This document shows positions 55,380 through 59,072 of a stretch of DNA of 64,000 bases, piece after piece. The notes under the pieces are model-generated. The model saw only the letters and a list, made by a program, of their open reading frames with translations, did no database searches and was not told where the DNA came from. Numbering within the stretch: the stretch's first letter is position 1; every line of letters begins with the position of its first letter. Source of the stretch: Thermocatellispora tengchongensis (lineage in GTDB: Bacteria > Actinomycetota > Actinomycetes > Streptosporangiales > Streptosporangiaceae); assembly GCF_014202315.1 (NCBI RefSeq), contig NZ_JACHGN010000016.1, forward strand, positions 248,001 to 312,000, given 5' to 3'. Position numbers and translations under genes: made by a program.

Positions 55380-57119
55380 CTAGCTGATGGTGATGGTGTG
55401 CAGGAGGTTGTTCAGCCCGGTGCCGGGCTCCCAGGTGCCGGTGTTGGCCAGGCGGATGGAGTACTCGGGACGGGAGCCGAGCTGCGGGTCGGGGAGGGCC
55501 AGGAGGAGGGCGTAGGAGCCGGCGGGCATCGAGGCCGGGAGCGTCACCGGCTGGGAGAGGGTCGTGGTGGTGCCCGCGAGCCACTTGCGCGGGTCGCCGG
55601 ACAGGGGCAGGCGGTAGGTGGCGGTGCCGCTCCGGAGCACCAGTTCCAGGTTGCGCGGGTTGACGGGCGCGGCCCATCCCTCGTTCTTGATGGTGATGCT
55701 GACCGGCAGCGTGCCGCCGCGGGTGGCCGTGGCCGGGTAGGTTCCGCTCTGCAGGGTGAGGCGGTAGCCGAGCCGCCGGCCGACCTCGGCCAGGCAGCCG
55801 CCGCTGTTCCAACCGCTCAGCACACCGGTGTGGTAGTCGGTGTTGAGGTAGGTCCAGTGGAAGCGGGACAGCTCGTCGAGCGCGGTCGGGCAGTCGGAGC
55901 GGGGCGGGTTGGGGTTGCAGGTCTCCCCGCCCATGGCCAGGTAGGTGGTCTCGGCCTCCAGGTAGGGGTACTCCACGGCCGGGTCGGTGTAGGTGCCGTA
56001 GTCGTCGGGGCCGGCCAGGAAGCAGTCGTTGTGGTGGCCGAGCCTCGCCTGAGGGCTGCCGCCGTGGGCCTGGGCCGGGGAGAGGGCGGCCGTGCCGTAC
56101 ATCGTGCGCTTGATCGCCGGAGTGCGGAGCTGGACCATCCGCGACGAGGGCAGCACGCTGAGGATCTTGTCGGTGACGGCCTTCCGGTTCGCCCAGTCCG
56201 TGGCGCTGACCACGCCCGCGTTGCCGAAGTTCTGCGTGTAGTACCACTCGCCCCAGGCCCCGACGAACCCGGCCTGCATCACGTGGATCACGTCGGCGTT
56301 GGCGCTCAGGTAGGGGGCGAGCTGGTCGAGGTGGGCCAGGACGCGGTCCTTCGGCGCGTCGGCGCCGTCGGTCGAGGCGGTGTAGGCGAAGCGGAGGATC
56401 ATCTTCAGGCCCGCGGCGCGCACGGTGGCGAACTGCTGCTGAAGCTGGTCCAGCGCGGCCTGGCCGATCGGCGCGTCGCGGTACTCCGACAGGTAGAACA
56501 CGCACATCACCAGGGAGATGTGCTGGCCGGCGCGGTAGTCCTGGAGGGTGGCGAGGGAGAAGTCGTTCTTGTCGCAGTCGCCGGTGTGGTGGTACAGGCC
56601 GCGGTCGGGGTTGGCGAAGGCGGCCGTGGACGGGGTGTAGGTGACGGTCGTACCGCTGCCGCCGCCGCTGTAGACGTGGGTGAGCTTGGCCGAGGTCTCC
56701 AGCGGGGCCTCGACCTGGAACACGAGGTCGGCGTCGTTGGGCGTGGCGCTCTCGCCGATGCCGGCCCGGTCGATCGTCCAGCGCGCCGTGCCGCCGGAGC
56801 CGGAGTAGGTGACCGGCGAGACGGGGGTCCAGCTCCAGCCGCCGCCGTTGTGCCGGTAGAGGCCGGCGTTCTCCAGCAGGTAGTCCGCCCCCACGCCGCC
56901 CTGGGCGAAGCCGGTGCCGGGGTCGCGGTCGGTGTCGATGTAGACGCGGGCGTAGGCGGGGCTGCCGGTGTAGGCGAACTGGTACGTCACGGTGGTGGCG
57001 GTGTTGGTGGCCGACTGGCCGGTGATGGCCGCCTGGGCGGGGGCGGCGATCAGCATCGAGGCGCACAGGAACGCCAGGATGGCGAGAATGCGCATCGCGG
57101 TGGCTCGGAGGAATCTCAT
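55380..57119 (-). CDS. secreted DUF4874/DUF4832-type protein with N-terminal accessory module
   Basis: 579-residue exported protein. Signal peptide of about 30 residues (ends APAQA). Residues about 32-160 form an accessory beta-sandwich-like module (YIDTDRDPGTGFAQGGVGAD, WSWTPVSPV) that is repeated at the C-terminus of the next gene's product. Then a TIM-barrel-like DUF4874 region (FANPDRGLYHHTG, LVMCVFYLSEY, GLKMILRFAY, GAWGEWYYTQNFG) and a C-terminal DUF4832 sandwich. The Glu in AWGEWYY is a plausible catalytic residue. Likely acts on an extracellular polysaccharide; activity unproved. Starts 3 bases past the upstream gene's stop, so cotranscribed with it. Confidence 0.85.
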   Translation of the reverse strand: MRFLRATAMRILAILAFLCASMLIAAPAQAAITGQSATNTATTVTYQFAYTGSPAYARVYIDTDRDPGTGFAQGGVGADYLLENAGLYRHNGGGWSWTPVSPVTYSGSGGTARWTIDRAGIGESATPNDADLVFQVEAPLETSAKLTHVYSGGGSGTTVTYTPSTAAFANPDRGLYHHTGDCDKNDFSLATLQDYRAGQHISLVMCVFYLSEYRDAPIGQAALDQLQQQFATVRAAGLKMILRFAYTASTDGADAPKDRVLAHLDQLAPYLSANADVIHVMQAGFVGAWGEWYYTQNFGNAGVVSATDWANRKAVTDKILSVLPSSRMVQLRTPAIKRTMYGTAALSPAQAHGGSPQARLGHHNDCFLAGPDDYGTYTDPAVEYPYLEAETTYLAMGGETCNPNPPRSDCPTALDELSRFHWTYLNTDYHTGVLSGWNSGGCLAEVGRRLGYRLTLQSGTYPATATRGGTLPVSITIKNEGWAAPVNPRNLELVLRSGTATYRLPLSGDPRKWLAGTTTTLSQPVTLPASMPAGSYALLLALPDPQLGSRPEYSIRLANTGTWEPGTGLNNLLHTITIS

Positions 57120-57122
57120 GCG

Positions 57123-58811
57123 CTACTCCACGGTGATGATCGGGCTGTACGCCTCGGGCGAGCTGCCGGCGCCGTGGAAGACCACGCGGTGCGGGCCGAT
57201 CTCGCCGCGGGGGACCCGCCAGACGAACAGGTCGCCGGCGGAGGAGACCAGCGGGCTGGGCCCTTCGACCGGCGCCCAGCTCCAGCCGGTGCCGGTGTGC
57301 CGGTAGAACCAGCCGTTCTCGATCAGGTAGTCCGCGCCGATGCCCGCGGTCGCGAAGCCGGTGGCGGCGTCGCCGTCCACGTCCATGAAGACGTGGTGGA
57401 AGTCGAAGGGCAGGTTGTACTGGGCGCGGTAGGTGACGGTGTCGCCGTCGATCGTGCCCTGCCCGTCGGTGATCGGCTCGCCGCTGGGCGTCGGGGTGGT
57501 GACGGTGAGCGGCCCGGCGGGCGCGGAGACGTTGCCGCTCGCGTCGCGCGCGGTGACGGTGAAGCCATAGGTGCGGCCGGGCGTCAGCCCGCTGACCGGC
57601 ACCGCCGCAGTGTCCGCGGGCAGCCGCAGCAGGGGCCGGCCGTCCACGGCCACGTCGTAGCCGGCCGCGTCGGGGACGGCCGTCCAGGCCAGCCGGACGC
57701 TCGCGACCTTGACCTGCGTGGCCCGCAGGTCCCCGGGCGAGGCGGGCGGCGAGCCGTCGGCGGGCCTCGTGGCGACCTGTACCGCGCGCCCGGCCGCCGA
57801 GGCGTTGCCGGCCAGGTCGCGGGCCCGTACGGCGAGGCTGTACCGGGTGCCCGGGGCCAGGTCCCGCAGGGTGATGGCCGGGGTGCGGCCGGCCGTGCCG
57901 GCGACGCGGACCCCGTCGAGGTAGACGTCGTAGCCGGCCGCGTCGCGCGTGGGCGGCCAGGCCAGCGTGAGCGAGGTGGACTCCCGCTCGACCGGGCGCA
58001 CCGGCCCGGGGCGGTGGGGCGGGCGGGTGTCGGCCGTGCGGGCCGCGGCCAGTTCCGCGTCCCAGTAGTCCGGCAGGGTGTCCCACGGGTTGGCCGGCGC
58101 GTCGGGGGTGACGTAGATGTAGCCCGCGCCGCGCTCCTTGCCCAGCCGCATGGCCTCGGCCATCTGCTCGGGGGTGGCGGTGGCGTGGACGAGGTGCCAG
58201 AAGCGGCGCGGGTCCTTGCCGCGCTGCCACGCCGGCGGCTGCCAGCTCAGGTAGGACTCGTAGGTGGCCTCGAAGGTCAGGCTCACATCGCCGATGTCGG
58301 AGTAGCACTCCTCGGTGCCGATACCGGGGTTGATCACGGTGAACGCGCCGCGGTGCAGGCTCTTGATGGAGGAGTCGAGCCAGCGGTAGGCGCCGGCGTA
58401 CTGGCAGACGTTCTGCACCTCGTCCAGGAAGATGCCGCCGAGCCCGTGCTCGCCGTACAGGCGGTACCAGGTGGCCACGTCCTGCTGCGCCTGGGCGAGC
58501 CACGCCTGCGGATCGCTCTCACCCAGCCAGGTGGCGCGGCCGGTGCTGCCCAGGTAGCCGGTGGCGACGTAGCCGAGCACGGTCACACCGGCCGCGCGGG
58601 CCTTGGCGATGGCGGCGGCGTAGGCGGGGTCGAAGTCCTTGCCGGGGCCGGAGAAGGGGTTGGCCACGACGATGCCGACCCCGGGGTCGTCGAGCCGTTC
58701 CCACAGGGGGCCCGGCTGGAAGTAGGCGGGCACGGCCAGCGCCTGCCCGACCTCGGGCGCGCTCGGAGGAGTGAGGAGGAAGGAGATTGCGACCAACAGA
58801 CGTACGACCAT
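57123..58811 (-). CDS. secreted spherulin-4-like glycosidase with two FN3 domains
   Basis: 562-residue exported protein. Signal peptide about 1-27, then a spherulin-4-like TIM barrel to about residue 240 (VPAYFQPGPLWERLDDP, GVTVLGYVATGYLGS, GLGGIFLDEVQN with acidic candidates, VINPGIGTEECY), two fibronectin type III domains (about 265-355 and 360-445), and a C-terminal module (FMDVDGDAATGFATAGIGAD, YRHTGTGWSWAPV) matching the N-terminal module of the downstream gene's product. Fungal spherulin-4 enzymes (GH135) cut galactosamine-containing exopolysaccharides, so a similar substrate is plausible. First gene of the two-gene operon. Confidence 0.88.
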   Translation of the reverse strand: MVVRLLVAISFLLTPPSAPEVGQALAVPAYFQPGPLWERLDDPGVGIVVANPFSGPGKDFDPAYAAAIAKARAAGVTVLGYVATGYLGSTGRATWLGESDPQAWLAQAQQDVATWYRLYGEHGLGGIFLDEVQNVCQYAGAYRWLDSSIKSLHRGAFTVINPGIGTEECYSDIGDVSLTFEATYESYLSWQPPAWQRGKDPRRFWHLVHATATPEQMAEAMRLGKERGAGYIYVTPDAPANPWDTLPDYWDAELAAARTADTRPPHRPGPVRPVERESTSLTLAWPPTRDAAGYDVYLDGVRVAGTAGRTPAITLRDLAPGTRYSLAVRARDLAGNASAAGRAVQVATRPADGSPPASPGDLRATQVKVASVRLAWTAVPDAAGYDVAVDGRPLLRLPADTAAVPVSGLTPGRTYGFTVTARDASGNVSAPAGPLTVTTPTPSGEPITDGQGTIDGDTVTYRAQYNLPFDFHHVFMDVDGDAATGFATAGIGADYLIENGWFYRHTGTGWSWAPVEGPSPLVSSAGDLFVWRVPRGEIGPHRVVFHGAGSSPEAYSPIITVE

Positions 58812-58882
58812 GTGTCAGCCCTTGATACCGGTGCGGGCGGGGGATCCCCCGCCTCCTGAGGGGTTCCCCAAGACTTGGGATT

Positions 58883-58911
58883 AATAATGGAGTCCAGGGA
58901 AACTAAGTCAA
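58883..58911 (-). promoter_or_regulatory. promoter of the spherulin-4/DUF4832 operon
   Basis: Reading leftward: TTGACT (58906-58911), 17-base spacer, ATTATT (58883-58888), about 70 bases before the start codon in an unusually AT-rich patch. The rest of the 325-base interval up to 59136 holds only the terminator palindrome of the gene to the right. Confidence 0.6.
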
Positions 58912-59072
58912 GACCCAATTCGGTCGCACGCCCGCCCGGCCCAGGGACCTTCCGGTCGATCCAGCAGTAGCCTCGGGGGGCGGATGCGCCCGCTCCCCTT
59001 GAGAAGAGCGCGGTGATCGTCTAATAATGACGGAGTCTCAGATAATCAGTCCTGGCAGGGCCCATGACCGGA

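Follow-up and report, generated by a model that had tools for sequence, protein, structure and literature searches.

What do two adjacent genes of the soil actinobacterium Thermocatellispora tengchongensis do together, whose secreted products carry the same accessory module at opposite ends? The genes lie in a stretch of 64,000 nucleotides (positions 248,001 to 312,000 of contig NZ_JACHGN010000016.1; hereafter the window) and encode a GH135-type (Spherulin4) protein and a DUF4874/DUF4832 protein. An initial annotation, made from the sequence alone, suggested that they cut or remodel an amino-sugar exopolysaccharide, perhaps the matrix of the cell itself. We propose, with moderate confidence, that their products form the secreted, polymer-cutting part of a ROK-controlled utilisation regulon for an alpha-1,4-linked galactosamine or N-acetylgalactosamine (GalNAc) polymer of the galactosaminogalactan (GAG) or Pel kind.

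Two secreted enzymes share an accessory module

Both genes are on the minus strand in head-to-tail order with the GH135 gene upstream, and the spacing is 3 bp, the ATG of the DUF4832 protein standing 3 bp past the stop of the GH135 gene. The GH135 protein has, in order, a signal-like start, the Spherulin4 barrel, two fibronectin type III (FN3) domains and the module, and the DUF4832 protein has a signal peptide, the module, DUF4874 and DUF4832. Homology of the two modules and their swapped position, C-terminal in the former protein and N-terminal in the latter, had been claimed, and both held. BLASTP aligned residues 442-539 of the GH135 protein with residues 27-122 of the DUF4832 protein (43 of 99 identical, 43%; E 2e-18), and the motifs that had been picked out (D-x-D-x-D..TGFA, GIGADYLIEN/GVGADYLLEN and GWSW-PV) match column for column in the alignment of both copies. 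Further, a hidden Markov model (HMM) of the module, which started from both copies of the window plus one relative, recovered the GH135-protein copy at 5.6e-35 and the DUF4832-protein copy at 1e-40. The similarity of the two modules is therefore far beyond chance. A third copy was not found in a search of the whole genome, which gave one extra match (E 0.6) with a stop inside. Recent duplication of the module inside the operon was rejected, because either copy of the window is closest to modules with the same partner (79% and 87% to relatives versus 43% to each other).

A scan of 84,980 species genomes yielded 52 module loci, in which the partner of the module is spherulin-4 in 15, DUF4832 in 14, and another or no recognised domain in 23. 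The HMM marked 87 domains in 65 reading frames (54 loci scanned and the window); loci L009 and L019 are apparently one Acrocarpospora contig. The module is C-terminal to the barrel in the 15 spherulin-4 loci, and among the 14 DUF4832 loci it is N-terminal in 13 and C-terminal in a Chloroflexota locus (L042).

The enzyme operon and a distant importer share an operator

The element CTTGACTTAGTTTCCCTGGACTCCATTATTAATCC precedes the enzyme genes, and the near-identical CTTGACTTAATTTCTATGGACTCCATTATTAATCC precedes the gene of a solute-binding protein (SBP) on contig C8 of the same genome. There, at about 250.8-255.1 kb, are encoded a ROK regulator, the SBP and two permeases (75, 78, 85 and 86% identical to those of Nonomuraea soli), with a divergent Gfo/Idh/MocA gene beside them. 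The enzymes lie on contig C16 and the importer on C8; thus, the set is split in this genome. A 32-base promoter/operator pattern, with up to 3 mismatches allowed, matched exactly 2 sites in the 11.65 Mb genome, one before the importer and one before the enzyme operon, and the reversed pattern, used as a control, gave 0 matches. A position weight matrix (PWM), which was built from the sites of ten relatives with neither site of this genome used and with the background set by hand, scored 60.0 bits in the window and 65.4 at C8. The next site in the window scored -1.6, and the best score over 50 Markov sequences of 64 kb was 6.6.

When 20 of 22 regions were aligned (the slices of L034 and L039 ended within their sites, and both sites were seen separately), the core GGACTCCATNATTA was nearly invariant over the 20 sites, while the -35 side drifts. 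A scan of the plus strand of 7 SBP loci found the operator in 5; the other two loci are on the opposite strand. The same operator precedes stand-alone DUF4832 genes of Nonomuraea (L025, L032, L038-L040), the genomes of which (G060, G071, G075-G077) encode the importer elsewhere. The shared operator, its two-site uniqueness and the same site at these stand-alone genes are good evidence, at the level of sequence, that the enzyme operon and the C8 importer form one regulon.

Contig C15 (L091, 7871-10507) holds a ROK gene with a melibiase-like gene divergent from it, together with a facing pair of similar palindromes (C15:231205 and 231310). These genes probably represent a sister regulon, the operator of which is related.

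Enzymes and importer are adjacent in relatives

Genes for ROK, a solute-binding lipoprotein and two permeases directly precede the spherulin-4-module gene in L011-L018 (Nonomuraea soli, zeae and glycinis, four Catellatospora and Virgisporangium; Pfam was run on L011 and L029). The same set directly precedes the DUF4832-module gene in L029, L035 and L036, and in L034 the ROK gene alone stands before it. An importer SBP of at least 66% identity is encoded next to the module genes at 11 of the 52 loci (L011-L018, L029, L035 and L036). As read from these sequences, the gene order is the layout of a glycan-utilisation locus. In L042, a non-orthologous ATP-binding cassette (ABC) set lies ahead of the DUF4832-module gene. 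An importer match at E 1e-90 was obtained in 9 of 18 module genomes, and 7 of these matches are 78-80% orthologues. A GH30-like gene faces the importer or the enzyme operon in two loci (L016, 5442-6773, minus strand, by Pfam; L099, 5217-6548, minus strand, judged by a similar start).

Both barrels hold conserved acidic residues

The GH135 protein matches Spherulin4 (PF12138) in Pfam with 124.2 bits against a cut-off of 30.2. Its barrel aligns to the Sph3 structure 5c5g (E 2.1e-5) with FLDEV/FFDET and FEATYES/FEATYAT in register, so that D130-E131 of FLDEV and E181 of FEATYES align with acids of the FxDE and FEATY motifs of Sph3, which are the catalytic ones there. In 19 of 19 DUF4874/DUF4832 homologues, E291, H363-N364-D365 and E399 are invariant. 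In the structural model of the DUF4832 protein, E291 follows strand 4 and E399 lies on strand 7 of a TIM barrel. An acid after strand 4 and an acid on strand 7 are the arrangement of retaining two-glutamate TIM-barrel hydrolases. The nearest folds among the matches listed are beta-amylases and GH5-type or similar endoglucanases, the best being the beta-amylase 3voc (VIA-align Z 14.6, 246 aligned, 3.8 A). This agrees with the beta-amylase-like fold reported for the DUF4832 protein SIR_1591 (PMC12345266, excerpt). Thus, the two barrels that had been predicted are present, the second in a model of moderate confidence, and, as far as this could be tested, acidic residues are conserved in both.

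Three further DUF4832 proteins, all without the module, are encoded on contig C20 of the same genome (L093, 3580-12157; L092, 167-4490). One of these has genes for a ROK regulator, an ABC sugar importer and a melibiase-like protein as neighbors, and the other two lie together at the contig start. In the loci L034 (6628-8061) and L036 (6668-8173) of two Kribbella species, the module-bearing gene is followed by a further DUF4874/DUF4832 gene that lacks the module.

Likely substrate and proposed mechanism

Recombinant SIR_1591, and likewise Sph3 and PelA, are described as disrupting aggregates of GalNAc-rich Pel (PMC12345266, excerpt), and GH114, GH135, GH166 and GH191 are grouped as endo-galactosaminidases (PMC12054363, excerpt). 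GH135 and DUF4832 proteins have therefore both been reported on one polymer type, which makes an alpha-1,4-galactosaminan the likely substrate of the two enzymes by analogy. The amino-sugar polymer of the initial annotation thus stands as a likely target, while its further suggestion of the cell's own matrix found no support.

In N. soli and four Catellatospora (L011-L015), a third module-bearing secreted protein follows, which in N. soli has no Pfam match. The closest annotated matches to it in a plasmid collection are Deinococcus proteins that bear the name 'endo alpha-1,4 polygalactosaminidase' (E 3e-9, query coverage 24%), and a profile of it gave only an irrelevant match in the PDB (E 0.047). 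The protein (L011:5367-7811; L012-L015) is barrel-like at its N-terminal end, contains a second stretch that resembles a sandwich and bears one or two modules; it represents a candidate galactosaminidase family.

We suggest the following course. Signal peptides would export both proteins, and the module, an immunoglobulin (Ig)-like beta-sandwich of about 120 residues, would dock them on the polymer or on the surface of its producer, the polymer being fungal GAG or a bacterial Pel-like matrix. The GH135 barrel, with its Asp-Glu pair, and the DUF4874/DUF4832 barrel, with E291 and E399, may then cut the chain in complementary ways. The oligosaccharides would be bound by the lipoprotein and imported by the CUT1-type ABC transporter, the genes of which are on C8 here but adjoin those of the enzymes in relatives. 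Both operons would be controlled via the operator TGGACTCCATNATTA by the ROK regulator of NagC/XylR type that is encoded with the importer, and an imported sugar would release it. More tentatively, with a chance that we put a little short of even, these parts make up a dedicated bacterial galactosaminan-eating system, i.e., a ROK regulon of GH135, DUF4832, the polygalactosaminidase-like third enzyme of the relatives and a CUT1 importer, with the module on all three enzymes.

Alternative explanations

Several results weigh against a galactosaminan-utilisation regulon. The model of the DUF4832 protein is of moderate quality (pLDDT 78.2, pTM 0.67) and falls below 50 at residues 286-290 and 292-301 around E291. 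The third enzyme was not found in the genome of the window at E 0.01, and the best NCBIfam match of the SBP is a galactooligosaccharide binder (GanS), far below the cut-off. Among the 18 module genomes, no importer orthologue was found in Acrocarpospora, which has the enzyme without the importer, nor in Umezawaea, Actinosynnema, Kibdelosporangium, Saccharothrix, Hyalangium, Sorangium and Kribbella kalugense. Of 200 genomes of the family, 5 hold an orthologue of the importer SBP and 4 hold the module, this genome alone having the two together, and the phylogenetic profile gave no support for coupling of importer and module. Four family genomes have the importer and operator with no enzyme adjacent; this, together with the GH30-like neighbor in two loci, indicates that the importer may also serve other glycans. 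Finally, SIR_1591 is encoded beside a biosynthetic pel operon (PMC12345266, excerpt), i.e., a member of the family stands in an own-matrix setting.

That last point leads to remodelling of the own matrix, in which the enzymes would trim or release an amino-sugar exopolysaccharide made by the cell itself. DUF4832 genes adjoin pelDEADAFG in streptococci and clostridia (PMC7112168, excerpt), and in fungi Sph3 is part of a biosynthetic GAG cluster (cf. PMC11356417, excerpt). However, PelG (PF16933) was not found in the genome, while the Thermotoga maritima control was positive, which speaks against Pel synthesis by the cell, and no polysaccharide synthase was noticed among the open reading frames adjoining the two genes when their translations were read by eye. 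Further, the enzymes have their operator in common with a sugar importer, which module genes follow in 11 of the 52 loci. We therefore consider an own-matrix role very unlikely and prefer feeding.

Two other explanations were considered. The main role of the enzymes might be to break up biofilms or to remove the GAG coat from fungi, feeding being of second rank, in line with the disruption of aggregates by Sph3, PelA and SIR_1591 (PMC12345266, excerpt) and with the presence of module proteins in Myxococcota such as Sorangium and Hyalangium; one operator with an ABC importer, however, favors nutrition. The two uses are compatible, and we rate a chiefly competitive or predatory one as unlikely. 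Alternatively, the regulon could target a different galactose-containing glycan, the barrels having drifted in specificity. The three C20 paralogues, one of them beside ROK, melibiase-like and ABC genes, would suit such a substrate, as would the GH30-like neighbors of the importer, the nearness of the SBP to GanS and the modest likeness of the Spherulin4 domain to Sph3 (E 2e-5). Yet two or three unrelated enzyme types co-occur of which the described members act on galactosamine polymers, and the probability of a different substrate seems to us low. Utilisation of a galactosamine polymer thus remains the reading that we favor.

Fold and distribution of the module

The module is previously unnamed and absent from Pfam and NCBIfam: none of 56 copies matched Pfam at E 0.01, the only NCBIfam match was a chance-like one to a porin in 1 of the 56, and a profile search of the PDB gave 0 matches. 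AlphaFold2 gave a confident Ig-like beta-sandwich (pLDDT 97.1, pTM 0.91). In the fold search, most matches were immunoglobulin V domains (Foldseek E 3e-3 at best, VIA Z no higher than 9.5), an arrangement too common to count as kinship. No known carbohydrate-binding module (CBM) family stood out in it, which does not speak against one, and no sequence match to a curated family was obtained; CBM56 (5t7a) ranked 7 in Foldseek (E 5.4e-3), and immunoglobulin domains score the same, so that a CBM family cannot be assigned. Plastocyanin was rejected as a solved relative, its single-sequence match (E 0.35) being chance-like and without a profile match.

Over the 56 aligned rows, D35, D37, T42, G43, G50, D52, E56, W68 and W70 are the conserved positions. 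In the D-x-D-x-D loop, D occupies position 35 in 49 and position 37 in 54 of the 56 rows, while position 39 is N in 24, D in 21 and S in 8. The Asp pattern, which had been taken to suggest calcium, is compatible with a metal loop, and an acidic loop with two Trp would fit a metal-stabilised carbohydrate binder. A common polymer-binding domain, as had been proposed, is plausible.

When 41 of the 56 rows were placed in a tree (the 15 left out are mostly archaeal), 13 of 15 spherulin-4 rows form one set, and 13 of 14 DUF4832 rows with 2 GDSL-lipase rows form another; both L023 rows and L042 fall outside these sets. The search for the module in other proteins, with Pfam run on 12 of the 23 loci with other or no recognised partners (L030, L037, L041, L043-L048, L053, L057 and L061), found it with a phosphoesterase (L030), a GDSL lipase (L041), CotH (L044, weak, and L047) and SpvB/FG-GAP (L045). 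It is carried by phosphoesterase, GDSL lipase and CotH proteins and is thus not specific to the GH135/DUF4832 pair. In the Thiotrichales loci L044 and L047, it occurs together with CotH kinase-like domains; CotH genes adjoin DUF4832 in streptococcal pel operons (PMC7112168, excerpt). Archaeal proteins of up to 1,900 residues (Thermoplasmata, Desulfurococcales and others; L043, L046, L048, L050-L052, L054-L062) have at least one copy, mostly without a Pfam domain among those scanned.

Table 1. Features of the enzyme operon (window positions)
Feature	Position	Strand	Basis
Secreted GH135-type (Spherulin4) protein, 562 aa	57123-58811	-	ORF (open reading frame); Pfam; signal-like N-terminus read from sequence
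Spherulin4/GH135 barrel, residues 26-256	58044-58736	-	Pfam PF12138 E 7.9e-36; PDB 5c5g alignment E 2.1e-5
Two fn3 linker domains, about residues 263-440	57492-58025	-	Pfam fn3 E 1.9e-16
Module copy 1, C-terminal in GH135 protein	57132-57476	-	BLASTP E 2e-18; HMM 5.6e-35; model pLDDT 97
Secreted module-DUF4874-DUF4832 protein, 579 aa	55380-57119	-	ORF; Pfam; signal peptide ending AQA
Module copy 2, N-terminal in DUF4832 protein	56679-57029	-	BLASTP E 2e-18; HMM 1e-40
DUF4874, residues 170-335: first half of TIM barrel, holds E291 (GAWGEW) after strand 4	56115-56612	-	Pfam E 3.3e-52; model
DUF4832, residues 359-559: rest of barrel (D365; E399 in GGETC, strand 7) and C-terminal beta-sandwich	55443-56045	-	Pfam E 9.6e-68; model
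Promoter/operator CTTGACTTAGTTTCCCTGGACTCCATTATTAATCC of enzyme operon	58878-58912	-	PWM 60.0 bits; pattern search of genome
Weaker second operator-like element, palindromic core 59025-59045	59021-59055	-	PWM rank 2 within window; palindrome search

Significance and comparison with known systems

In biofilms, galactosamine polymers (GAG in fungi, Pel in bacteria) act as the binding material, and galactosamine is described as a component of soil microbial extracellular polymer (PMC11014887, excerpt). The parts of the proposed system (GH135, DUF4832, ROK, CUT1) are ordinary; in the literature searched, we found no description of their combination and no paper on bacterial use of galactosamine polymers as food. 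If our reading is true, bacteria would here feed on the cationic galactosamine matrix found in fungi and biofilms, by the first such route known to us, none having been found in that literature. It would provide testable genes for galactosamine-polymer use and a candidate inducer-controlled set of biofilm-dispersing enzymes. It would also add a third enzyme, which has no Pfam family, and a new accessory domain, which marks other secreted proteins too, from myxobacteria to archaea.

The GH135 protein resembles Sph3, the spherulin-4 of Aspergillus (PDB 5c5g, 5d6t), in its Spherulin4 barrel with FxDE and FEATY motifs. Unlike Sph3, it comes from a bacterium and, as a secreted protein, carries two FN3 domains besides the new module, and its gene belongs to a two-enzyme operon with an importer-shared operator, outside any polymer-synthesis cluster. 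The DUF4832 protein resembles SIR_1591 of Streptococcus intermedius (PMC12345266, excerpt) in its domain order and fold, with DUF4832 behind a TIM barrel resembling beta-amylase. It differs in its N-terminal module and in having a signal peptide instead of a transmembrane helix, and also in its setting, in a genome without PelG. With the GH114 and GH191 endo-alpha-1,4-galactosaminidases, the system would share its presumed substrate class, and the third enzyme of the relatives resembles proteins so annotated; that enzyme, however, is not in the genome of the window and has no Pfam match. The module is an Ig-like sandwich as are beta-sandwich CBMs (e.g., CBM56, 5t7a) but has no sequence match to them. 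Finally, the regulator, SBP, two permeases and palindromic operator are those of actinobacterial ROK-controlled CUT1 sugar-uptake loci of the NagC/XylR type, from which the present set differs in that its partner enzymes are of the GH135 and DUF4832 types and that enzymes and importer lie on two contigs.

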